22,015 nucleotides of DNA, from positions 1 through 22,015 of the forward strand of contig CANKNP010000034.1 of NCBI GenBank assembly GCA_947483545.1, given 5' to 3'. The notes under the pieces are model-generated. The model did not search any database and had not been told where the DNA came from. It saw only the letters and a list, made by a program, of their open reading frames with translations. Source of the stretch: Deltaproteobacteria bacterium (GTDB taxonomy: Bacteria > Myxococcota > UBA796 > SXON01). Below, piece by piece: positions 1 through 16,637 of the stretch (its first letter is position 1; each line of letters opens with the position of its first letter). The translations under genes and the position numbers were made by a program.

Positions 1-122
1 AACCACGCCACGAGCATGTCGTCGGCGGAGAATCGGTGCCCGTCGCGCAGTTGGAGGATCTTCCAGGTTCCGGCGAGACGATCGAGGGTCGTCTCGCCCG
101 GGGTCGGCGCTCCGGGGGTCAC
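1..122 (-). CDS. Probable tRNA1(Val) adenine-N6-methyltransferase-like protein, N-terminus only
   Basis: Only the first 40 codons are inside the window; the gene runs off the left edge. A GTG start (122-120) overlaps the TGA stop of the Hsp70-PilZ gene in a GTGA, the same junction style used elsewhere in this operon, which supports the start. After a short Pro/Thr-rich leader the protein reads RLAGTWKILQLRDGHRFSAD and continues DMLVAW. This resembles the N-terminus of TrmN6/YfiC-like SAM-dependent methyltransferases, which typically have a short strand followed by a G-[HY]-R-[FY]-S-x-D-x-x-L-x-A stretch before the SAM-binding motif. The SAM motif and the catalytic NPPY-type motif would lie outside the window, so the call rests on the N-terminal signature alone. 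Confidence 0.45.
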   Translation of the reverse strand, partial: MTPGAPTPGETTLDRLAGTWKILQLRDGHRFSADDMLVAW

Positions 123-2941
123 AGGCGGTCGATCACCCGCTCGATGCTCCGGCGCTCCGTGTCCGACAGGCGGTACTCGATGCCCATGCCCGCTTCTTGC
201 CCGGGCCCGCTGGTCGCGACGAATGTGACGACCGCGGGGAACAACAAGGTGTCGTCCAGGCCTGGGGCGGTCACTTCGCAGATGCACTCGCGGCCGACCT
301 GCAGGGGCTTCGGCGTCTTGATGAACGTGCCCCCTTTCCGTAGGTTCTCACGGTACTCCTCGCCGAGCCGGGAAGGGTCGGGATACCGCAGCCGCACACG
401 GGCAGGCTTCCGATTGGAAGCGGGGGCCGGATCTGTCGGCCGCACGAAGGGGTCAGGCCCCAGGTCCACCGGGCGGGCCGGGGTGACCGGCACCGCTTCG
501 GACTCGGACCAGGCCCAGCCCCGACGCATGACGGCGGTGTCATCCTCGTTCGGGGTGCGCGCGCTCTCGGCGCCCCGATCCGCTCCGCTCACAGACCGCA
601 CGTGATCCGCCGAGCCCGGCACGGATTGCAGCGCCGAGGGCTCCGAGGTGGGGATGGAGAACCGCTCTGCGATCTCCTCCTCGGGCACCGCAAATCCGCC
701 GCGTGGCGACGAAGCCTCGCCCCCCTCCTCCACGAGCTCGCCGACGTCCGCGAAGTCCGCGTCGTCCGGCGACGCGCGAAAATCGAACCCGCCCTGCGAG
801 TCGTTGGGTGCAGCCAGCGGCTCATCCCATGCGACGGGGAGAGCCCCCGGGTCTGTGAGTTCGCTGCGCAGGTTCTCGAATGGGTTCTGCGACATCCGAT
901 TCACGCTCAACAGCTCAGACGGCGCCTCAGACGGCGAGTCCTTGACCGCATCCCTGAAGCCGCCCCCCGCTCCATAGGCGCCTCCGGCGATGCCCACCGC
1001 GACCGGCGGCTCCACCTGCTCATCGGTGTCTTCCACCGGGGTGTCGAGGATCACCCCGTCCTCGTCCTGCACCGCGAACATCTCGTCGATCCGTCCGGGC
1101 GTGGGCAGCGGCATGATGATCCCGGGCTCCGCGACCGCTGGAGCCGCGACCGGTGGTGGCTCCGGGGCCACAGGGGCATCTTCGCTGTCCAAGATCCGGG
1201 GGCTCGCTGCAAGCTCAGGGGCCCCAGGGGGCGCGATGGAGGCGGCGGCAGGCGCGGCAGGTGAGGTCGGCCCGACCTCCTTCACTGGTATGATCGGCTT
1301 CTTGCGCTTGAGCGCCCCAAAAATGCCGTCCAAGAGCCCAGGCCGCTTGCCCACGGGCTCGGCCGCGCTCGAAGCCTGTCGCTTGAGCCGCTCCGCCTCC
1401 GCGACCCGCGCCTCCTCTGGGGCGGGAATGTGCGGCGATGCCGCATGCTCCGCGTAGTTGCGGATCGTGATGTTCTTTCGCTCCCCCGAGCCCTTCTCGA
1501 TGGCTGAGACGTGCAGCATCCCGTTCCCATCGATCCGAAACGTCACGTCCACCTTGGTCATCATCCGAGCAGCCGCGGAGAGCCCCGTGAGCACAAACTC
1601 GCCGAGGAACTCATTCTCCACGCTGTTTCGCGACTGGCCTTGGCGCACGGTCACCCGGACGGACTCCTGGTTGTCGTTGGCGGTGGCGAACGTGCGGGTC
1701 TCCGTGGCGGGCACCCGGCTGTTTCGATGGACGATCGGCACGAACAGCCCACCGGCGCTGTCGATGCCCAGGTCGAACGGCGTGACATCGAGCAGGACGG
1801 TACGGCTCTGGTCAGCGTCCGCAAGGTTCGCCGCATGCACGGCAGCCCCGACGGCCACGGCCTCTTCCGGGTGAACCGTCCGCGAGGGCTCGCGGCCAAG
1901 CAGCGCGCTGATGGCCTCGCGGATCCGCGGCATCCGTGTCTGCCCGCCGACGAGGATGACCTCGTCCACCTCCGAGAGCTTGAGCCCGCCCTCCAGGACC
2001 GCTCGGCGGGCGATGTCCACGCAGCGCTGGACCAGATCCGCGGTGATCTCCTCCAACTTCAACCGCGTGAGCACCAGATCGATGCTGTGCTGCGGGGTGA
2101 CGTGGGGGATGACGATGTTGGTGCGGTCGGAGAACGACAGCTCACACTTGGCCCGCTCTGCGGCGTCCCGGATGCGCTGCACGGCGTTCTTGTCGTTCGT
2201 CAGGTCAACCCCGGACCGGTCGCGGAACGCGCCGACAAGGTGATCGACGATGCGGGAGTCGATGTCCTCACCGCCGAGGTAGCTATCCCCGAGCGTCGAG
2301 AGGGTCTCATAGATCCCGGACGAGAGGCGGAGCACGCTGACGTCGAACGTGCCGCCCCCAAGGTCGAAGATCAGGATTGTGCGCTCGACGTTCTTCCGGT
2401 GTCCAAACGCCAACGCCGCGGCCGTCGGCTCGTGCAGGAGCCGGTCGCATCGGAGCCCCGCCATCTCCGCAGCCTCGATCGTCGCCTTGCGCTGGGCGTG
2501 GTTGAAGTACGCGGGGACTGTGATGACCGCCTCCTCCACGCGCTCCCCCAGCGCCTTCTCGGCGATCGAGCGGGCCACCTGTACTACCACCGCCGCGACC
2601 TCCGTCGGCGACATCCACTGGTCACCCACCATCAACTCGACACCGCCATCCGGCGCCGGCCGAACCTTGTAGTTCACCCGCCGAATTGCCTCTTGCACCT
2701 CGGGGCTATCAAACCGCCGGCCGATCAGCCGCTTCGTGCTGTACACCGTCCGCTCAGGGCGCGTCAGGATCAGGTTGTGGGCGGCTTGGCCGACAACGAA
2801 CTTGCCCTCCCCCTTCGCAGAGATGACCGACGGGAGCACTTTGTACCCTCGCTCGTCCTCGATCACGCGCGGCCGACCACCCTCCATCACCGCCACAGCG
2901 GTGTTGGTCGTACCCAGATCGATCCCGATGATGCGAGGCAT
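119..2941 (-). CDS. Hsp70 (DnaK-like) chaperone fused to a C-terminal PilZ-like domain
   Basis: This 940-residue protein starts at ATG 2941 with a GGAG Shine-Dalgarno (2951-2948) six bases upstream. Residues 1 to about 380 form a complete Hsp70 ATPase domain: GIDLGTTNTAVAV near the start, DLGGGTFDVSVL in the middle and the VGGQTRMPRIREA adenosine motif. A substrate-binding beta domain follows to about 505. The alpha-helical lid and EEVD-type tail of DnaK are missing. Instead there is a long, low-complexity Pro/Ala/Glu/Asp-rich linker (about 510-840) and a 100-residue C-terminal domain starting around 841. That domain resembles PilZ, especially the Myxococcus paralogous type TIGR02266 (RKPARVRLRY, then EYRENLRKGGTFIKTPKPLQ). 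RxxxR is present at 844-848; the second c-di-GMP motif is N866-L-R-K-G-G, with Arg where Ser is usual. The gene lies 21 bp downstream of the purF homologue and is probably the fifth gene of the purine transcript. It is likely cytoplasmic. Its client and ligand are unknown. Confidence 0.9.
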   Translation of the reverse strand: MPRIIGIDLGTTNTAVAVMEGGRPRVIEDERGYKVLPSVISAKGEGKFVVGQAAHNLILTRPERTVYSTKRLIGRRFDSPEVQEAIRRVNYKVRPAPDGGVELMVGDQWMSPTEVAAVVVQVARSIAEKALGERVEEAVITVPAYFNHAQRKATIEAAEMAGLRCDRLLHEPTAAALAFGHRKNVERTILIFDLGGGTFDVSVLRLSSGIYETLSTLGDSYLGGEDIDSRIVDHLVGAFRDRSGVDLTNDKNAVQRIRDAAERAKCELSFSDRTNIVIPHVTPQHSIDLVLTRLKLEEITADLVQRCVDIARRAVLEGGLKLSEVDEVILVGGQTRMPRIREAISALLGREPSRTVHPEEAVAVGAAVHAANLADADQSRTVLLDVTPFDLGIDSAGGLFVPIVHRNSRVPATETRTFATANDNQESVRVTVRQGQSRNSVENEFLGEFVLTGLSAAARMMTKVDVTFRIDGNGMLHVSAIEKGSGERKNITIRNYAEHAASPHIPAPEEARVAEAERLKRQASSAAEPVGKRPGLLDGIFGALKRKKPIIPVKEVGPTSPAAPAAASIAPPGAPELAASPRILDSEDAPVAPEPPPVAAPAVAEPGIIMPLPTPGRIDEMFAVQDEDGVILDTPVEDTDEQVEPPVAVGIAGGAYGAGGGFRDAVKDSPSEAPSELLSVNRMSQNPFENLRSELTDPGALPVAWDEPLAAPNDSQGGFDFRASPDDADFADVGELVEEGGEASSPRGGFAVPEEEIAERFSIPTSEPSALQSVPGSADHVRSVSGADRGAESARTPNEDDTAVMRRGWAWSESEAVPVTPARPVDLGPDPFVRPTDPAPASNRKPARVRLRYPDPSRLGEEYRENLRKGGTFIKTPKPLQVGRECICEVTAPGLDDTLLFPAVVTFVATSGPGQEAGMGIEYRLSDTERRSIERVIDRL

Positions 2942-2962
2942 ACAAGGCTCCAGCGGGTCAGC

Positions 2963-4261
2963 TTACCAGACGGAGGCGGGCTTCGGGAAGAGCGGGATCT
3001 GCGGGTCCAGGGGAACGACCGGGTAATCCCCTGAAAAACAACCGTCGCAACATGCCGTCGAATCGTGCCCGACGACCACGTGCACTGTGGTGCGCTCGGG
3101 ATGAGCGAGGCTGTCCGCATCGAGCCACGCCCGCATCCGCGGAATCTCGAACCGGTTCCCGAGCAAATCGTCCGTCGGCGGGCCCACGACTCCGTACACG
3201 CAACTGCCGATCAGCGGCATGGCGCCCAACCGAATGTGGACCTCTGCGGCGCCGGCCACACGAAGCGCCGCCACGGCCCGCCGGGTCCGCTCCCCGCTCG
3301 CAAAAAGGTTCACCAGGAGCGCGACGCGCTGCCCGTGGACGCCGGCGCTGGCGCGCATCTGACCTGACACGTCGCCGACGAGGCAGGGCAGCGCCCGGAC
3401 CTGGCTCTTCGCCGCGAACCCCGCGGCGAGCGCCTCGCTCCCCGGCATCGGCACGACGAGATCACAGCGCACCGGAAACGCCTCGGCCAACGCCGCGCCC
3501 ATCCGCTCCCGCACCAGCACGACGTCCACCCCGAACACCCGGGCGTCCGGCGCCGCGAGCCCGAGCCACTCCGCGACGCAGGGCCGCGGCGCCATCTTGG
3601 GAAACGGCCGCAGACTCTGCAACTGTGCGCCTTCCACCACGACGACCTCCCCCGGTTCCACCTCCCGCTCGTAGCTCGCGCCGCTCGCCCGGAGCGCCCC
3701 CCCCTCGGACGCCACCACCCATCCGCCGCCCCGCCGACCGATGCACAACGGCCGCAGGCCCCGCACATCCCTGGCCGCCACGAGGAACTCCCCCGTGAGC
3801 ACCACCACCGCGAACCCCCCTTCGATCCTTGGTAGCGCCTCCAGCATCCGGTTCATGAACGTCCGCCGTTCGCTCTGCGCCACCAGATGGATGAGCAGCT
3901 CGGCCAGCGACTCCCCGGCGAACAGCGCCCCCCGCGCCATCAGCGCGCCGCGCAGCACCACGGCGTTGGTCGCCCGCCCGTCCGCCACCACGGCGACAGC
4001 GCCGCTGCGGTCCGCGAACACCATCGGCGCATCCCCGCCCATCCGCACCAGCGCCGTATCTGCGACACCCCGGAGGTCCGGACCGGGTCGCCGAGCGTCC
4101 GGCGCCACGGCGACGACCCCTTCCTCACCTCGCACGGCGAGCGCCGCGCTTTGAACCCCCTCCCCCACCCGCGCCGACAACGCCGGCAGGGCCTCCGCCA
4201 CCGTCCGCGCGGCGTCGAGCACGCCGTGAACGGCGAACAGGGCGCACGCCGGCCGCATCAC
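2963..4261 (-). CDS. Degenerate amidophosphoribosyltransferase (PurF-like) homologue, probable pseudoenzyme
   Basis: PurF normally makes phosphoribosylamine from PRPP and glutamine, the first step of purine synthesis. This 432-residue intact reading frame follows purL and aligns with PurF end to end. It has a Cys nucleophile candidate (Cys6, in [10 protein letters not shown]), then [16 protein letters not shown], then [15 protein letters not shown]. Equivalents of all four Bacillus-type Fe-S ligands are kept (RPCVAEW, GSCVYG, CCDGC). The key catalytic elements are gone: QHRGQ is absent, HNGN is ADGR, the TSSD loop is AGES, and the PRPP loop VDDSIVRGTT is [11 protein letters not shown] saw no reading frame that restores these motifs, so this is not a simple frameshift. 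The start is GTG 4261 (GTGA overlap with the purL stop) or the next codon, ATG 4258. A structural, regulatory or altered catalytic role is inferred. A canonical purF should exist elsewhere if the organism makes purines. Confidence 0.85.
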
Positions 4262-6429
4262 GCCTGGATCCAGCTCGCAAACGCCGCCCCATGCACGTCG
4301 CGCAGCGCCTGGACGGGCCAGCTCCTGCCGCCTGCGGACAGCGTCTCGCCGCCGGTCGCGCCGAGCACCCGCATCTCGACGCTGACCAGCGCCCGGACCG
4401 CATCTCGCGCCTCCGGACGGTAGGCGATCAGCGCACGGCCGTGATCCTCTCCGTACAGCGCACCCGCATCGCCCCCCACGTCGAACCTACCGCCCACCCC
4501 GCCGAGGCAGCACTCCGCCAGCGCGACGAGCAAGCCCCCATCGGACAAGTCGTGCGCGACCTCCAGGACGTCGGCCTGAACCAGCGCGCGAAGCGTCTCA
4601 TGCAGCGCCCCCTCCTTCGCGAAGTCCACCGGGGGCGGCGCCCCGTGCCGGTCGAACCCGAGCTGGCGGGCGTAGATCGAGCCAGCGAGCCATCCCACGC
4701 CCTCCGCACCGAGGATCGCCACCTCCAGCCCCTCCGAAAACCGTGCCCGGACCCGGGGTGGGGGGCCTTCATACAGCCCCACCATCGCGAGTCCCGGCGT
4801 CGGGAGAATGCCGACCCCATCGGTCTCGTTGTACAGCGACACGTTCCCCGAGACGACCGGGATGCCCAGCGCTCGGCAGGCCTCGGCCATACCGTCCACC
4901 GAGCGGGCGAACTGCCACATGATCTCGGGCTTCTGGGGGTTACCGAAGTTCATGCAGTCGGAGAGGCCGATCGGCGTGGCCCCCACACAGGCGAGGTTGC
5001 GGGCGCACTCCGCCACCTGCCCCGCCGTGCCGATCGCGGGGTCCAGGTACACATGCCGCCCGTTGCTGTCGCAGACGAACCCCAGATGCTTCCGCGTCCC
5101 CTTGATCCGGACCAGCGCGGCGTCAGCACCTGGGCCCACGACCGTGTCCGTGCCTACCTGGTGGTCGTACTGGCGCCAGATCCATGCCTTGTCGGAGATG
5201 TCCGGATCCGCCAGGATCGCCAGCAGGCGGCCGGCCGGGTCTGCGTCCACCAACTCAGGCAGGTCGGGCAGGCGTTTGGGGGCCTGCTGCGGTCGGTCGT
5301 ACTTCGGTGCCGCGTCCGTCAGCACGGCGACCGGGATCGCCGCGACCTCCTCCCCGTGCCAACTACAGCGCCAGATCCCGTCGTCGGTGACCTCGCCGAT
5401 CTCGGCGACCGAGAGGTCCCACTTCTGGAACACCGCGAACACCTCTGCCTCCCTCCCCGGCTCGATGACGATGAGCATCCGCTCCTGGCTCTCGGACAAC
5501 AGCAGCTCGTACGGGACCATGCCCGTCTCCCGCATCGGGACCTGATCCAGCCGCAAATGCAGGCCTCGCCCGCCCCTTCCTGCCATCTCGACCGAGCTGG
5601 ACGTGAGCCCCGCGGCACCCATGTCCTGAATGCCGACGATGGCCGTGCCCTGCATCAGCTCCAAGCACGCCTCGAGCAGCAACTTCTCCTGGAACGGATC
5701 GCCAACTTGCACCGTCGGGCGCTTCTCTTCGCTGCCCTCGCCGAACTCGGTCGAGGCCATCGTGGCGCCGTGAATCCCATCCCGCCCGGTCCCGGCCCCT
5801 ACGTAGAACACCTTGTTGCCGGGCGCGCCGGTCGTGCCCAGAAAGATCCGGTCGCTGGCGACGATCCCGCAGCAGAACGCGTTCACGAGGCAGTTCCCGT
5901 CGTACGAGCGATCAAACCGCGTCTCGCCCGCCACCGTGGGGATCCCCATGCAGTTCCCGTACCCGGCGATGCCGGCCACCACGCCTTTTACGAGCGCGCG
6001 CGTGCGCGGATGCTCCAGGCGGCCGAACCGCAAGCTGTCCATGAGGGCGATCGGCCGGGCGCCCATCGTGAACACATCCCGGAGGATCCCGCCCACTCCC
6101 GTCGCGGCACCCTGGTAGGGCTCAATGTAGGACGGGTGGTTGTGCGACTCCATCTTGAAGCACGCCGCGTACCCATCGCCGAGGTCGACGACGCCTGCGT
6201 TCTCGCCGGGGCCGATGAGCACGTTCGGACCTGTCGTCGGCAACCGACCCAGGTGGATCCGGCTCGACTTGTACGAGCAGTGCTCAGACCACATCACGCT
6301 GAACACACCCAGCTCCACGAACGTCGGCTCCCTGCCGAGCACTTCGAGGAGCCGCTGATACTCGTCGGCGGACAACCCGTGCTGTTGCACGACTTCGTCT
6401 GTGATCTTGCCGGTAGTGCCGGGGGTCAC
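4258..6429 (-). CDS. purL: Phosphoribosylformylglycinamidine synthase subunit PurL
   Basis: PurL is the ATP-dependent synthase subunit that converts FGAR to FGAM, using ammonia delivered by PurQ in a PurS-PurQ-PurL complex. At 723 residues it has the length of the small, Bacillus-type PurL. Visible signatures are the N-terminal [13 protein letters not shown] with catalytic His50, the Mg/ATP region [10 protein letters not shown] (Glu94, His96, His98) followed by a glycine-rich [20 protein letters not shown], the internal [16 protein letters not shown], and a second-half [16 protein letters not shown]. The start is GTG 6429, which overlaps the purQ stop in a GTGA. The gene ends in an overlap with the purF homologue. 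Because the small PurL lacks a glutaminase domain, it needs the purQ and purS genes immediately upstream. Confidence 0.97.
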
Positions 6430-7118
6430 GCCGTCACCTCCACGTCTTCCGCGGTGGCGAGCGCGCCGGCCAGCGATCGGAACACTCCAGCACCGTCGAT
6501 CCCGCCGAGATCGGCCTCTACGTAGCGCTCGGGGTGGGGCATCAGCCCAACCACGTTGCCGGCGAGGTTGCTCACGCCCGCGATGTCATGGAGCGCACCG
6601 TTGGGGTTATCCTCGATGTACCGGAAGATCACCTGGCCCTCGCCTTCGACCCGCGCCAGGGTCTCCTCGTCCGCGAACCAATTGCCCTCAGCGTGGGCGA
6701 TGGGGAGCCGCAGCTCGGCGCCCGCAAGGCCGCGCGTGAACGGCGTGGCCTTCCCCTCGACCCGGAGCCGCACATCTCGGCATTGAAACAAGAGCCCCGC
6801 GTTCCGTAGCAACACCCCGGGGACCAGCCCGCACTCGGCGAGGATCTGGAACCCGTTGCAGACGCCCAGGACCGGACCCCCATTCGTGGCGAAGCGGATC
6901 ACGTCCGCCATCACCGGCGAGAACCGCGCGATCGCCCCGCAGCGCAGGTAATCCCCGTAGGAAAACCCGCCGGGAAGCAGCACTGCATCCACCTTCGGCA
7001 GGCTCGGCTCCTTGTGCCACACGGCGACCGCCTTCATGCCGAACAGGGTGACGGCGTGGCGCAGATCCGCGTCGCAGTTCGACCCCGGGAACGTCACCAC
7101 CGCGACCCTCGCGCTCAA
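6426..7118 (-). CDS. purQ: Phosphoribosylformylglycinamidine synthase glutaminase subunit PurQ
   Basis: PurQ is the class I glutamine amidotransferase subunit of FGAM synthase; it hydrolyses glutamine and channels ammonia to PurL. The 230-residue product begins [19 protein letters not shown], as PurQ proteins do. It carries the [13 protein letters not shown] segment, the nucleophile elbow LGVCNGFQ (Cys87), and the remaining triad members in LMPHPERY (His195, Glu197). The start is a TTG at 7118 that overlaps the purS stop in a TTGA, with GGAG just upstream inside purS. The weak start codon suggests that translation depends on coupling to purS. Confidence 0.96.
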
Positions 7119-7351
7119 AGGAGCTCCACGCGGAACGACTCGATGACCACATTAGCCAGGAGCTTCCGACACATCTCCTCCAACCGCACCTTCGGATCCA
7201 GCGTGCCGTCGGCGATCTCCATGTCAAAGAACTTGCCGATGCGAACCCCGCGAACCTCCTCGTAGCCCATGCTCTGGAGACCGCCCTGCACCGCGGTGCC
7301 TGCCGGGTCATGGACGCCGGGCTTGAGGGTGACGTAGACACGAGCGCGCAT
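7115..7351 (-). CDS. purS: Phosphoribosylformylglycinamidine synthase subunit PurS
   Basis: PurS is the small structural subunit that bridges PurQ and PurL. The 78-residue product has the usual PurS length and pattern: [20 protein letters not shown], then a [20 protein letters not shown] core and a C-terminal [17 protein letters not shown] 7351 was chosen because a GGAGG (7361-7357) lies five bases upstream and because the family begins at this point. The frame stays open further upstream, but that stretch has no PurS-like sequence. It is the first gene of the minus-strand operon, so the promoter should lie in 7352-7610. Confidence 0.95.
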
Positions 7352-7610
7352 CGAGGCCTCCGAGGGGCGGCGGGTAACGCGCGCCGGGCTGGCCCGCCCT
7401 CGCACCCCCTCCCGGTTTGGGGTACCCTGTGCGCTCCCCGGATGTGCTCTTGCTACGCTCGATCTTCGCCGATTCTCCCGCCCCGCGAGGGCGCGGCGCT
7501 GGCGCATCGGCCAGTGTTGGCCAAGAACGCCCGCATTCGCGGGCTCGTGTTCGCGTCGATTCGGCCGGGTCCGGCGCTCCCGCGCCGTTCCCGCCCGAGA
7601 CGCAAACACA
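7352..7610. other. Divergent intergenic region between purS and the lipoprotein operon
   Basis: About 260 bases without a convincing gene separate two divergent transcription units, so both promoters should be here. I see no clear sigma-70 -35/-10 pair on either strand. Several short inverted repeats are visible: GGCCA...TGGCC around 7508-7522, CCCGC...GCGGG around 7530-7543, and GGCGC...GCGCC around 7573-7586. They are clustered on the lipoprotein side and could structure its leader RNA. No purine-riboswitch-like sequence was recognised. Confidence 0.5.
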
Positions 7611-7660
7611 GGAGCCAGCTTTGAAGGCGCGCACTTCGTGCCGCCTTCAATTCTGGCTCC
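7611..7660 (+). promoter_or_regulatory. Long hairpin enclosing the ribosome binding site and start codon of the lipoprotein gene
   Basis: The sequence forms a nested inverted repeat. GGAGCCAG (7611-7618) pairs with CTGGCTCC (7653-7660), TTGAAGGCG (7621-7629) pairs with CGCCTTCAA (7642-7650), and GCAC pairs with GTGC around a TTC loop. The interruptions are one 2x2 internal loop and one bulged C, giving 21 base pairs. The outer arm contains the Shine-Dalgarno GGAG and the inner arm begins with the TTG start codon, so the folded RNA would hide both. No T-tract follows, so it is not a typical intrinsic terminator. It could be a translation switch or a palindromic repeat captured at a gene start. 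Confidence 0.6.
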
Positions 7661-8484
7661 CCGTTCTCCTCCTGGCCGCCTGCTCTGACTACAAGTTGGG
7701 CAACGGCCAGGACAGCCCACCGCCTGCCGGAGACTCCGACGCCAACGACCAGGACTCCGACTCCACGGACTCCGACTCCCCGGACTCGGACACCCAGGAC
7801 TCCGACTCCCCGCCCGATCCCAACGAAGAGGTGTGCGACGGGGCCGACAATGACGCCGATGGCGAGGTGGACGAGGGCTTCGACGCGAACAGCAACGGCA
7901 TCGCCGATTGCCTGGAGACCACCGAATACTGCACCCCCTTCGACGACTTCTCCGGCTGGTCCTATACCGGCGAGGGCGATTGGTATGTCGAGTCCGGCTA
8001 CCTGACGGAGGGCCGGGCAGGGAGCTACGCCGGCATCGCGTACACGGCGGACATGGGTCTGGGCACGGCGTTCAGCATCGAGACCGGCACCGCCTGGACC
8101 GGCAACGACAACGACCTGACCGGGATCGCGTGGGCGGTGAACGGCGAAAATGCCTACGTCGCGCGTTGGGACGACCCGCAGGGCGACTATGAGCGCTACA
8201 CCCCGACGGGGGGAATGGACATCTCGCGCTGCGACTCGTCTGGTTGTACCGTACTTTACGCGGACTCCTCGGCCGATCTGTACTGGCCCGCGGACCTGAC
8301 CTTCGCGATCTTTCGCGTTCAGGTCAACGGCGCCGATGTCCAGGTGATCGTGAACGGCGCCGTCGTGCTCACGGCGAACCTCCCGGAGATCGCGGGCACC
8401 GGACCCGGCGTCGTGGGCGTATACAGCAACGACAACGACGGCGGCGTGTGGTTCGACGATTTCTGCGTATGGTCCTCGGGATGA
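7621..8484 (+). CDS. Secreted lipoprotein with Ser/Asp linker, MopE-type metal-binding motif and jelly-roll-like domain
   Basis: The start is TTG 7621, six bases after GGAG. It gives a 287-residue protein with a short basic N-region and a lipobox ending LLLAAC (Cys21), so it is probably exported and lipidated. Next comes an acidic Ser/Asp/Pro linker (about residues 34-66), then EEVCDGADNDADGEVDEGFD, which matches the repeat called the putative metal-binding motif of MopE-like proteins (normally DNDCDG; here the second Cys is Ala). The remaining ~190 residues, rich in Gly, Asp and aromatics and ending GVWFDDFCVW, look like a concanavalin/laminin-G-type beta sandwich. Function is unknown; surface binding of a metal, glycan or phosphate ester is possible. 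The stop overlaps the alkaline phosphatase start (ATGA), so the two are probably made together. Confidence 0.8.
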   Translation: MKARTSCRLQFWLPVLLLAACSDYKLGNGQDSPPPAGDSDANDQDSDSTDSDSPDSDTQDSDSPPDPNEEVCDGADNDADGEVDEGFDANSNGIADCLETTEYCTPFDDFSGWSYTGEGDWYVESGYLTEGRAGSYAGIAYTADMGLGTAFSIETGTAWTGNDNDLTGIAWAVNGENAYVARWDDPQGDYERYTPTGGMDISRCDSSGCTVLYADSSADLYWPADLTFAIFRVQVNGADVQVIVNGAVVLTANLPEIAGTGPGVVGVYSNDNDGGVWFDDFCVWSSG

Positions 8485-13565: not shown

Positions 13566-13700
13566 GAAGTGACCCCTCCACTTTGAGATGATCATCATCC
13601 CGAAGTGACGCCACCACTTTGAGATGATCATCATCCCGAAGTGACGCCACCACTTTGAGATGATCATCATCCCGAAGTGACGCCATCACTTCGGGATGAT
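13566..13700. repeat. Left array of 36-bp palindromic REP-like repeats (four units)
   Basis: Units with a period of exactly 36 bases start at 13566, 13602, 13638 and 13674; the first two bases-rich blocks are gaagtgacgccaccacttt and gagatgatcatcatccc. Read in palindrome phase, each unit is a 35-base imperfect hairpin: atcatcccgaagtg, a 7-base loop, then cactttgagatgat, with one mismatch and one G-T pair. Palindromes lie at 13594-13628, 13630-13664 and 13666-13700. The first unit has a diverged left arm and two changes in the loop region. One free base separates adjacent palindromes. Confidence 0.9.
13666..13700. repeat. Perfect 15-bp palindrome that contains the transposase stop codon
   Basis: The last unit of the left array differs from the others in its right arm so that both arms match perfectly: atcatcccgaagtga (13666-13680), loop cgcca, tcacttcgggatgat (13686-13700). 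Read on the minus strand, the right arm supplies the last codons of the transposase (Ile-Ile-Pro-Lys-stop). The strong hairpin could slow or end transcription from either side, although no T-tract follows. Confidence 0.85.
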
Positions 13701-14525
13701 CGCGCCGAGTAGAACGATCGCCGGCTGGAACGCGGGGTCCTGCTCGGCCACCGAAGACCACCTCCGCACCGTCTGCTGGGTGACCGCCAGGACCCGACTC
13801 GCCGCGGCTACGCCTACCTCCCGGACAAGCGCCCACGCCAAGACAATGCGATCACGTTTCCCCCCGCGTTCGGCGTCCAGGAGCGTCGCTGGGCGCGTCC
13901 CGCACACCCGGGACACGGCCACGACGACGCAGTCGACCCTTCCGTCGAGTTGAGGCTGCATCACGACGAGCGCCGCTCGGTCCTCCAAGTACTGTTGCAG
14001 CGTAGCGGGGTAGCTGCCCTCGAACAGGTCGAAAACCTCACCAGGCTGCAGCCAGTCCTGCGCTGCGCCCGACATCCAAGCGGCCTGACTGGATCGCAAC
14101 CCGACATCGAGTCGCCGAAGATCGGTGCTGTTCGGCGCCGGATTCGCGTGGATGTACATCGCGAGCGTCATCAGGTATGCGGCGCTGTCCGCGGGCATCC
14201 GCCAGAACGAACGCTGGAAGATCCCCCCCCGCTGCTGCATCCGCCGGTTCAGGTTCTGCGCGGGCGGCCCCAGAAGCCGCTTCATGACCACGGGCAGGCG
14301 ATCCGGGTCCGCCAGACCAATCAAGGAGTGCATGTGCGACGACATGAAGGTGTAGGCCGCGATCGCGCATGCTGCGCCGCTCACAGCCTCGAACCCTCGG
14401 AAAACATCTCCGCGAACGTCCCGATCGTCAAAGACCGGGCGGTCCTGATTGCCTGTCGCGATCACATGAAAGTAGTGCACGGTCCTCTCCCGCCCCGCCT
14501 CTACCCCGTCTTCCACGCAGCGCAA
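13686..14525 (-). CDS. REP-associated tyrosine transposase (Y1/IS200-like, RAYT type)
   Basis: The 279-residue frame has the Y1 transposase plan. HYFHVIATGNQDRPVF is the first strand, corresponding to YHVTSRGN in relatives. FMSSHMHSLIGL carries the HUH pair (His64, His66), and LAMYIHANP carries the candidate catalytic Tyr124, in the place of the usual YIHxNP motif. A GKRDRIVLAWALVREVG segment followed by SRVLAVTQQTVRRW near the C-terminus looks like a helix-turn-helix, as found in many RAYTs. The enzyme is expected to nick and rejoin single-stranded hairpin DNA, here presumably the flanking palindromes. The start is uncertain: TTG 14525 is the longest, GTG 14516 is possible, and GTG 14480 has the best Shine-Dalgarno (GGGAGAGG just upstream) and starts directly at HYFHV. 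The frame is intact with no missing core motif, so it may be active. Confidence 0.85.
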   Translation of the reverse strand: MRCVEDGVEAGRERTVHYFHVIATGNQDRPVFDDRDVRGDVFRGFEAVSGAACAIAAYTFMSSHMHSLIGLADPDRLPVVMKRLLGPPAQNLNRRMQQRGGIFQRSFWRMPADSAAYLMTLAMYIHANPAPNSTDLRRLDVGLRSSQAAWMSGAAQDWLQPGEVFDLFEGSYPATLQQYLEDRAALVVMQPQLDGRVDCVVVAVSRVCGTRPATLLDAERGGKRDRIVLAWALVREVGVAAASRVLAVTQQTVRRWSSVAEQDPAFQPAIVLLGAIIPK

Positions 14526-14533
14526 GGTTCGTC

Positions 14534-14640
14534 ACCACCCCGAAGTGACGCCACCACTTTGAGATGATCATCATCCCGAAGTGACGCCACCACTTTGAGA
14601 TGATCATCATCCCGAAGTGACGCCACCACTTTGAGATGAT
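14534..14640. repeat. Right array of 36-bp palindromic REP-like repeats (three units)
   Basis: Three palindromes at 14534-14568, 14570-14604 and 14606-14640 match the left array in sequence, spacing and orientation; the first has two changes in its left arm. The units are otherwise identical to those about 1 kb away, which suggests recent amplification or gene conversion. The last right arm ends at 14640, the final base of the transglycosylase stop codon (TGA, 14642-14640 on the minus strand). The region upstream of the transposase start (14526-14533) is unique sequence. Confidence 0.9.
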
Positions 14641-16637
14641 CACCCCCCGTAGACTCTCCGATACTTCTGGAAATAGCCCAGCACGCGCCTCACATAGCGG
14701 CGGGTCTCGGTGAAGGAGATGTCCTCTGCGAAGCGGTCGGCCTCGGGGATCTCGGACGAGGCGGAGAGCCAACGATCGACAGCGTTCGCACCCCCGTTGT
14801 AGCCAGCGATGACGAGGGGCAACGACCCGCCGTGCAGGAGCGCCCTGGACTGAAACTTCCCGTGCAATAGGCCCAGCTCGGTCGTACCCAAGCGGGTGTT
14901 CACGCCCGCGCGATACAAATCGTCCACCATGAACCCTGCCACACGGCCCTTGGCCAGTTCGGTCGCCAGGGCCGGCATCAACTGCATGAGCCCACGCGCC
15001 CCGGCGGGCGAAGTGACGGACGGATCCAACCCGCTCTCGGCGGTCATGATCGCGTAGGGCAAGAGCGCGGGGAGCCCGGATTCGGCTGCGATGCGGTCCA
15101 CCACGGCGCGGTAGGGCCGCGGCGCCGAAAATCCACGGCCGGCGGGCGTGGACGCAAAGTTTTTGGCCAACTTCTGGGCGGCTTGGATCCGGTCGAGATC
15201 CATGAGCAAGCCGGCCATCGCCAAAGCGGTGGTCTCGGAAGCCTTGCTGGCCTCGATCTCTGAAGTGGGAACCAAGGCGAGCTCGCCAAGCCCGGCGTCT
15301 GCGAGGTCTCGCGCGTCCCGAACGGTCCGGTGGGCGGCCAGGTACGATTCGGGAAATGCGGGTGGGTCGGCCGTGAGGGTCGCCGTCCAGGTCTTGCCCA
15401 ACCGTGCCGCGGCAAAATAGGCGTAAGAGGTGTCCGGGTGCTTTTCGAGCACCTCGCGGAGGCCATCGTCCGACGATGTGGCCCGGGCTCGCCAATACCG
15501 CGCGGCGGCGGCCAATTCCCCGGCCCCGGAATTCGCGCCCGCGATCACCTTGTCAAAGGCGACCAGCGCTTCCTCCCTCCGCCCAAGCCGATACAATGAC
15601 CAGGCGCGCAACCATCGGGCGTCCCAAAGGAATTTACCCTGGGAGTGACCGTTGATGTAGGTGGCAAACAAATCCACGGCGGGCGCGAGGTGCCCCGCGT
15701 CGTATTCCATGTACGCGGGCTTCCAAGCGGCTTCATCGGCCTCGGCAGAGGTAGGCCAGCGCGCGATGAGCGCCCCGTATTTCTTCGCCGCCGTGGGGTA
15801 ATCCCCCGCCCGCGCCGTCCCCAGCGCCTCGTGAAACGCAGTTACCGACGAGGTCGTGGACGCCCCCGCCCGCCCAAACCACTCGACGGCTCGCCCATAG
15901 ATCTTCGCGTCGAACAGCGCCTCCGCCATGTACATGACTTGGGCCCCCGTGAAGGGTGCCGCCGCATTCACCCCATCGAGCAGCGGGATCGCCATCGGCG
16001 CCTGCTGAATCGCCAGGAGTTTTTTGGCCCGCGCGAGCGCCAGGGTTCGCCCCTCCGCCGTCGTGTAGTCTGGCACCGGCCTCCCCAAATTGGCGAGCGT
16101 GACCTCAGCGCGCGTCGAAAACTCCGACGTCGGGTATTGGGTCCATACCGATTGTAGCAAGCCCGCTGCATCCACGCCTACGATCACGGTCCCCGCGATG
16201 CGTGCCTGCGCCGCGGCCTCGCCCGTCCAGTACAGACGGGCGTCGGATGCCCCGGCCGGGGGGGTCCCCAAGGTCCGCACCGCGTCTACCGCCAATCCCG
16301 CCACGATCTGCGCCCTTCCCCGCAGGACCAGCTCCGCGTCGCCCGGCAGATCGACCCCGGCGAGCGTCGCCAGCGCGGAACGACCGTCCCCAGCCTCGAT
16401 CTGCGCGTGTGCAAGCTCCCCTTTGGCGTGGCTCGCAAGGGTCCCCCCGACCGCTCCGAGCACCTCCGCGGCCCGCGCCGCGGCCCCCGTTCGCGCGTAG
16501 CACCGGCCCGCTACAAATCGCTCGACATCCGTCGTGGGCGCCACCAACTTCGCCAGCACTGCACCGCAGTCGCCGATCTGCAGATCCGCGGCCCAGGGGC
16601 TCGCCGCAAGCGCAACAGACAGCAGGGGGAACAGCAT
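14640..16637 (-). CDS. Soluble lytic murein transglycosylase (Slt family)
   Basis: This enzyme cleaves peptidoglycan between MurNAc and GlcNAc in the periplasm. The 665-residue protein starts at ATG 16637, with GAGG five bases upstream, and begins with a signal peptide (MLFPLLSVALAASPWA, likely cut after ALA). Residues about 25-500 are an alpha-helical, TPR-like superhelix as in Slt70. The C-terminal SLT domain has the catalytic Glu534 in IMTAESGLDPSVTSPAGARG, then LMQLMP, GYNGGANAVDRWL and DISFTETRRYVRRVLGYFQ. The product ends YRRVYGG and its stop codon touches the REP array, so the array may have set or replaced the original 3' end. It is divergent from the chalcone-isomerase-like gene. Confidence 0.93.
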   Translation of the reverse strand: MLFPLLSVALAASPWAADLQIGDCGAVLAKLVAPTTDVERFVAGRCYARTGAAARAAEVLGAVGGTLASHAKGELAHAQIEAGDGRSALATLAGVDLPGDAELVLRGRAQIVAGLAVDAVRTLGTPPAGASDARLYWTGEAAAQARIAGTVIVGVDAAGLLQSVWTQYPTSEFSTRAEVTLANLGRPVPDYTTAEGRTLALARAKKLLAIQQAPMAIPLLDGVNAAAPFTGAQVMYMAEALFDAKIYGRAVEWFGRAGASTTSSVTAFHEALGTARAGDYPTAAKKYGALIARWPTSAEADEAAWKPAYMEYDAGHLAPAVDLFATYINGHSQGKFLWDARWLRAWSLYRLGRREEALVAFDKVIAGANSGAGELAAAARYWRARATSSDDGLREVLEKHPDTSYAYFAAARLGKTWTATLTADPPAFPESYLAAHRTVRDARDLADAGLGELALVPTSEIEASKASETTALAMAGLLMDLDRIQAAQKLAKNFASTPAGRGFSAPRPYRAVVDRIAAESGLPALLPYAIMTAESGLDPSVTSPAGARGLMQLMPALATELAKGRVAGFMVDDLYRAGVNTRLGTTELGLLHGKFQSRALLHGGSLPLVIAGYNGGANAVDRWLSASSEIPEADRFAEDISFTETRRYVRRVLGYFQKYRRVYGG

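Follow-up and report, generated by a model that had tools for sequence, protein, structure and literature searches.

A maintained PurF pseudoenzyme that keeps its cluster cysteines in a purine operon of Myxococcota

INTRODUCTION

PurF commits the cell to purine synthesis. The residues with which it binds its substrates have been approached both by mutation and by simulation. In the Arabidopsis enzyme, single changes of the Asp, Asp and Ser of the PRPP loop are described as markedly lowering activity (PMC7056826), and simulations of E. coli PurF are described as bringing the flexible loop (K326-L350) and Arg73 into contact with substrate analogues (PMC7953260). Homologues of pathway enzymes that lack catalytic activity are also on record. 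The ATCase of Pseudomonas is described as requiring an inactive dihydroorotase, pDHO (PMC7053772), and HisZ is described as the regulatory partner of HisGS (PMC9734150).

Here we describe pseudo-PurF, encoded in a stretch of 22,015 nt from contig CANKNP010000034.1 that was analysed as a whole and is called the window below. Its closest described relatives are the [4Fe-4S] PurFs of the Bacillus type (1gph and 1ao0, profile TIGR01134, and 6lbp from Arabidopsis), with which it shares the predicted fold of the whole chain and the four cluster cysteines. A position after purL is common to pseudo-PurF and to part of the canonical copies in sister genomes. Unlike Bacillus-type PurF, it has no conserved N-terminal nucleophile, glutamine-loop Arg, HNGN motif, PRPP-loop Asp pair or flexible loop, and it scores below the family cut-off. 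Like pDHO of the Pseudomonas aeruginosa ATCase, pseudo-PurF is a catalytically dead homologue of a pathway enzyme that is maintained in nucleotide synthesis, but the fold and the pathway are different, and for pDHO it is proven which enzyme it partners and that this enzyme needs it, whereas a partner is proposed for pseudo-PurF (PMC7053772). HisZ is likewise a non-catalytic enzyme homologue, acting at the first step of a pathway that uses PRPP. It descends from histidyl-tRNA synthetase, is a paralogue of an aminoacyl-tRNA synthetase and not of the enzyme that it controls, and is not known to carry an Fe-S cluster, unlike what is proposed for pseudo-PurF. A search of the full-text literature, judged by titles and the beginnings of abstracts and covering few subscription journals, returned no report of a dead PurF paralogue with 4Fe-4S cysteines.

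RESULTS

An intact frame with the PurF fold

The pseudo-purF frame is intact, starts with GTG and overlaps the stop codon of purL; purL, purQ and purS lie upstream on the same strand (Table 1). The first-pass annotation had read this frame as an unbroken PurF homologue of 432 codons coupled to purL, which is confirmed by alignment to TIGR01134 (residues 78-414, 157 bits, E 7.8e-46) and to Bacillus PurF in 1gph and 1ao0 (residues 78-416, E ~4e-45). The score against TIGR01134 is far under the 350-bit cut-off of that family, and residues 1-77 align to PurF in multiple alignments and in the predicted model only. An AlphaFold2 model built on a 65-row alignment has a pLDDT of 93.8 and a pTM of 0.90, although the alignment includes canonical PurF rows, which favours a PurF fold in the model. 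The best 17 PDB matches of this model in Foldseek are all PurF, with TM scores by query length of 0.89 (6lbp), 0.89 (1gph) and 0.86 (1ao0), so that by its predicted model the protein belongs to the PurF fold.

Table 1. Features of the pseudo-purF locus, in coordinates of the window
Feature	Position	Strand	Basis or remark
Hsp70 with C-terminal TIGR02266-like stretch	119..2941	-	next gene after pseudo-purF; conserved neighbour
pseudo-purF	2963..4261	-	432-codon frame; PurF fold, neither active site
codon of Cys407, matching Bacillus PurF Cys440	3038..3040	-	1gph alignment; kept in 24/26 pseudo rows
codon of Cys404, matching Bacillus PurF Cys437	3047..3049	-	1gph alignment; kept in 26/26
codon of Cys353, matching Bacillus PurF Cys382	3200..3202	-	1gph alignment; kept in 24/26
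PRPP-loop site (DDSIVRGTT in canonical PurF; here [10 protein letters not shown])	3284..3313	-	alignment
codon of Cys227, matching the cluster ligand Cys236 of Bacillus PurF	3578..3580	-	1gph alignment; kept in 24/26 pseudo rows
former glutaminase HNGN motif, now ADGR	3974..3985	-	alignment
purL (small type)	4258..6429	-	NF002290, 947 bits; stop overlapping pseudo-purF start
purQ	6426..7118	-	NF002957, 314 bits
purS (start codon not fixed)	7115..7366	-	PF02700, E 2.1e-26

Promoter and terminator scans of positions 2500-8300 gave no more hits than shuffled sequence. The Hsp70 gene that follows pseudo-purF has a long linker between its N-terminal part and a C-terminal stretch that matches TIGR02266 at 47.6 bits, below the cut-off of 68.7. 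Its N-terminal part is closest to DnaK (584 bits) and scores 458 bits against HscA, the Fe-S chaperone, both below cut-off. This Hsp70 adjoins PurF-A (the canonical copy described below) or pseudo-PurF at every family locus read except that of G006, where the contig ends. That it might be a dedicated chaperone of an Fe-S pseudo-PurF is a thought that we mention in passing.

Both active sites are lost and the cluster cysteines are kept

In the window the PRPP loop DDSIVRGTT has become VNLFASGER(T), QHRGQ has become SARVG, and the glutaminase residues are gone as well, with Ala in place of the glutamine-loop Arg, ADGR in place of HNGN and SLAE in place of SDTE; the losses of the PRPP loop, HNGN and QHRGQ had been pointed out before and are borne out by the alignments. 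The flexible loop is deleted here and in all 11 pseudo rows of the family. Across the class, 26 of 26 pseudo rows have lost the glutamine-loop Arg and the HNG motif, and the PRPP-loop Asp pair is changed in every one of them. Since the lost residues are those described as important for activity or simulated in contact with substrate analogues (PMC7056826, PMC7953260), the substitutions support a loss of catalysis. New consensus residues have appeared in their place, namely ..GR for HNGN, Ala in SDTE and Gly in PDSG, each in at least 20 of the 26 rows. When 17 canonical PurF-A rows are taken as reference, 210 columns are invariant, and 56 of these are retained by all 11 family pseudo rows; retention is 3/41 within the catalytic motifs versus 53/169 elsewhere (Fisher p 0.0014).

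The equivalents of Bacillus Cys236, Cys382, Cys437 and Cys440 had also been reported as present, and the alignment to 1gph bears this out (Table 1; protein numbers are a hand count along that alignment with Met2 as 1). The protein thus has the four ligand residues of the Bacillus class, the cluster itself being putative. Six cysteines are invariant in canonical PurF-A. The four cluster ligands are kept in 11/11 family pseudo rows, one other is lost in 11/11, and the sixth, at the nucleophile position, is kept in six of the ten closest rows and missing in G006. A hand calculation from 56/210 puts the chance of retaining four named columns together at ~0.005. A comparison of the cysteines with the catalytic sites in relatives, which the first-pass annotation had proposed, therefore separates the two: the cysteines are kept throughout the family and the catalytic positions are not. 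The four ligands occur together in 24 of the 26 rows across the class; the two exceptions, G043 and G044, have each lost three of the four, as expected if all serve one cluster. The nucleophile Cys, present in the window and given weight at first, is found in only 7/26 rows overall and is not a maintained feature of the family.

The operonic gene probably descends from a canonical copy and in related genomes coexists with a second purF

The closest relatives of pseudo-PurF are eight proteins at 61-65% identity, after which identity falls to 39% at canonical PurFs (among the best 120 of 590 matches). Eleven loci were found, five of them close homologues (G001-G005), and the order purS-purQ-purL-pseudoPurF-Hsp70 is kept in all five of these. 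The linkage to purSQL is kept at every locus read in the clade of the window (window, G001-G005 and G006). A search for a canonical purF had been suggested; run on the relatives, it finds in 5/5 close-homologue genomes, and also in G006, a copy on another contig. In the five genomes this copy scores 423-432 bits, over the cut-off, and has full motifs, its activity being judged by sequence. We infer from these relatives that the genome of the window has a second purF of its own.

This second copy, PurF-B, is matched on another contig in 22/22 family genomes (412-432 bits). Fifteen of the 22 also have a PurF-A over the cut-off, G019 has one in two contig-end pieces, and G001-G006 have the below-cut-off copy instead; 16 family genomes thus carry PurF-A and six the pseudo gene, and none carries both. 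All 15 of these PurF-A copies retain full motifs, and each is a neighbour of the same Hsp70 (one contig stops after a short part of that gene), which indicates that the pseudo gene is a PurF-A that lost catalysis beside PurF-B. In the flanks read, purL adjoins 7/15 PurF-A copies. Among the other eight genomes, six give only a low-scoring purL match, which lies in a frame of 1287-1340 residues that we interpret as FGAM synthase of the large type; G007 and G012 have no purL match at E 1e-50. As to the rest of the pathway, purD is found in 4/6 and purH in 5/6 pseudo-bearing family genomes, the misses falling in the two smallest assemblies.

Some further observations concern these genomes. All 22 (G001-G022) have two PurF-type genes. 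In five genomes in which it was read, PurF-B begins with MCG and has no propeptide, and at five loci its neighbours are presumably an exonuclease-like frame on one side and a methyltransferase-like frame on the other, names that we give from appearance. One locus (L002) stands in a record titled Bifidobacterium breve and has the same gene order as, and close homology to, the Myxococcota-like loci; it is probably a mislabelled assembly.

The pseudo gene is under purifying selection

The frames are open in all 11 family pseudo rows used. A dN/dS comparison had been put forward as a check. In codon models of five genomes, omega = 1 is strongly rejected for the pseudo gene (2dlnL 1083), and neutrality is rejected in a second codon test as well (2dlnL 181). 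The five genomes give omega values of 0.036 (pseudo gene), 0.018 (PurF-B) and 0.023 (PurL), with dS probably saturated; saturation in most pairs makes omega there rough. An unsaturated pair of the class, G028/G029 (dS 0.41), also gives 0.036 for the pseudo gene, and three canonical pairs (dS 0.7-1.9) give 0.017-0.020. In two genome pairs dN is 0.14 for pseudo-PurF versus 0.056 for PurF-B and 0.23 versus 0.075, that is ~2.5-3x higher, so that the constraint on pseudo-PurF is weaker but real. Loss of catalytic residues, a kept frame and purifying selection are found together, and it is well supported that pseudo-PurF is a maintained pseudoenzyme and not a product of plain decay.

Pseudo copies recur across the class

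Pseudo copies are present in 21/71 genomes of the class. A scan of the class returned second purF matches far below the cut-off, and the reading of 16 genomes yielded 15 further pseudo copies, all without the glutamine-loop Arg, HNG and the PRPP-loop Asp pair; 13 of the 15 keep the four cluster cysteines. A purL lies beside five of them, of the small type in G030, G037, G047 and G048 and of the large type in G042, and Hsp70 lies beside one (G049); these neighbours are counted within the flanks read, some of them cut short by the end of the contig. Twelve of the 15 copies are accompanied by a canonical purF that passes the cut-off; G036 and G044 have truncated pieces, and none was found in G029 in the class scan. 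The second copy of G050 (L186) has lost its glutaminase residues and keeps EDSIVRGT together with the cluster cysteines, a half-dead protein that has taken another route; with its PRPP-like loop it was not counted as pseudo. An apparent fusion in G028/G029 to an upstream part of ~700 residues was rejected by eye as a GC-rich non-coding frame opposite a longer frame.

PurF-A-like copies occur in 33/71 genomes, pseudo copies in 21/71, and none is counted with both, which has a chance of 5e-8 if the genomes were independent, as related genomes are not. The count is loose: six matches of 482-504 bits were left out (G027, G028, G039, G052, G063, G071), of which the three that were read group with PurF-B, and counting that of G028 would give one overlap; six counted PurF-A-like copies (G065, G066, G068-G071) fall on the PurF-B side of one tree.

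Beyond these genomes, 238 homologous proteins were compared, namely the best 120 of 590 matches and the best 120 of 2637 (the latter with a profile from eight of the 15), a selection by best score that may miss rows without the cysteines. Within this set 89 proteins have none of the three sites tested, two of these through a gap at a site; the four cysteines are kept in 89/89, and the final position of HNGN is Arg in 76/89.

One or several origins

In a first tree of 28 rows, the 11 pseudo rows are nested within the PurF-A group of the family (100/100) and lie together (95/99, with a long-branch warning). The joint tree of the class unites 25 pseudo rows on one side of a split (100/100) and likewise carries a warning of long branches; the G050 copy and the G036 copy (which lacks its start at a contig edge) were left out of this tree and of the trees on reduced sets that follow. 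When the other class members and G006 are removed, the clade of the window joins the canonical PurF-A of the family (97/89), and when that clade, G006 and G049 are removed, the remaining pseudo rows go with a different canonical set (SH-aLRT 96). A smaller joint set also keeps the pseudo groups united (SH-aLRT 99), but a tree constrained to hold the window's clade with PurF-A survives the AU test (p 0.21). The position of G006 is not fixed by a species tree built on gyrB, secA and PurF-B (AU p 0.35 and 0.34). As the trees vary with the rows included and the tests reject neither reading, neither one nor several origins is favoured.

The joint trees and the shared substitutions, 13 derived ones along with a one-residue gap and the loop deletion common to the clade of the window and G006, point to one origin, or to long-branch attraction combined with strong convergence. 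In-place change in several lineages is instead suggested by the common locus, by the lack of any family genome with both copies and by the family-like neighbours. The PurL of the window is 77% identical to that of G011, which has a canonical PurF-A, versus 55-61% to those of four class members with pseudo copies. Mean identities reveal no extra similarity between the pseudo groups, and 23 columns that mark groups split 6, 5 and 12. We advance only tentatively, and with considerable doubt, the idea of a class-wide family of Fe-S-bearing dead PurFs in which at least two losses of catalysis in operonic PurF-A would have occurred in place and converged on ..GR, Ala in SDTE and Gly in PDSG, each product becoming a subunit that controls the first purine step of PurF-B.

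DISCUSSION

What could a PurF without active sites contribute to a purine operon? The early suggestion of a maintained pseudoenzyme is supported by the canonical purF of relatives, the kept cysteines, the codon models and the intact predicted fold. We interpret pseudo-PurF as the operonic PurF-A of this lineage after loss of the glutaminase and PRPP-transferase functions, in a gene that purifying selection maintains. The protein would still bind a structural [4Fe-4S] cluster and, made in step with PurS, PurQ and PurL, may act, without catalysis of its own, as a partner subunit in assembling or regulating a complex for purine synthesis formed by PurSQL and/or the active PurF-B. On balance we lean towards this explanation as a whole, a dead, Fe-S-bearing PurF-A kept as a non-catalytic partner in purine synthesis, in which the partner role is suggested by analogy with pDHO of the Pseudomonas ATCase and with HisZ of HisGS. 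Several observations weigh against this explanation. Canonical PurF-A already stood next to purL, so that this position says little on a new role, and purL of either type is near only 5/15 class members outside the family. Pseudo-PurF evolves faster than PurF-B, two class members have lost cysteines, and in 3/15 no canonical purF passes the cut-off. An identity of only 25-28% between pseudo-PurF and PurF-B also makes a mixed tetramer less than evident.

Alternatively, the cluster could do more than staple the structure and serve for sensing, pseudo-PurF then being an Fe-S sensor of oxygen or redox state or some other regulator of purine synthesis. Four ligands kept in nearly every row while the substrate sites are lost would suit a sensor, but a structural cluster would yield the same conservation. 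Moreover, Pfam finds glutamine-amidotransferase domains only, with no DNA-binding or output domain, the predicted fold is that of a plain PurF, and G043 and G044 keep the gene despite three lost ligands, so that we judge a sensor unlikely. Slightly less probable still is a function outside purine synthesis, with the operon position as a leftover. The new residues at HNGN, SDTE and PDSG are compatible with it, as are the 10/15 class members that do not stand beside purL in the flanks read, but the unbroken purSQL linkage in the clade of the window argues against it.

An amidophosphoribosyltransferase that is still active, or dependent on ammonia, with unusual motifs could draw on the intact predicted fold and on a short Gly/Thr stretch (GERT) at the old phosphate-loop site of the window; it is very improbable given an Asp pair changed in 26/26 rows, a flexible loop deleted in 11 family rows and a marked loss of activity described for single Asp, Asp and Ser changes in the Arabidopsis enzyme (PMC7056826). 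A pseudogene in decay, observed before its frame was interrupted, would fit the faster protein-level change relative to PurF-B in two genome pairs, but is hardly credible against open frames in 11 family rows, omega far below 1 (2dlnL 1083 and 181) and 89 dead proteins, each with four cysteines, among the 238 listed.

What are the implications of a dead PurF with its cluster ligands? A twin of this kind, with the ligands and without the active site, separates two possible roles of the PurF [4Fe-4S] cluster, in catalysis and in support of structure or assembly, and through it the role of the cluster becomes testable. It also adds a member from the purine pathway to pathway pseudoenzymes such as pDHO and HisZ. 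In addition, several dead homologues are labelled amidophosphoribosyltransferase in their sources, and purine prototrophy inferred from the name alone can be wrong.

Proteins that carry this name in their source records and are dead homologues include P0121, P0124, P0127, P0134, P0135 and others. Scans of the whole window for tRNA genes and for Rfam families at the gathering threshold gave no matches. Elsewhere in the window, positions 13566-14642 hold 36-bp tandem repeats (3.8 and 3.1 copies) on either side of a frame that resembles an IS200-like/REP-associated tyrosine transposase, a weak match at 39.7 bits in NCBIfam (cut-off 80) and 25.2 for Pfam Y1_Tnp (cut-off 23); it is perhaps a REP-type element.
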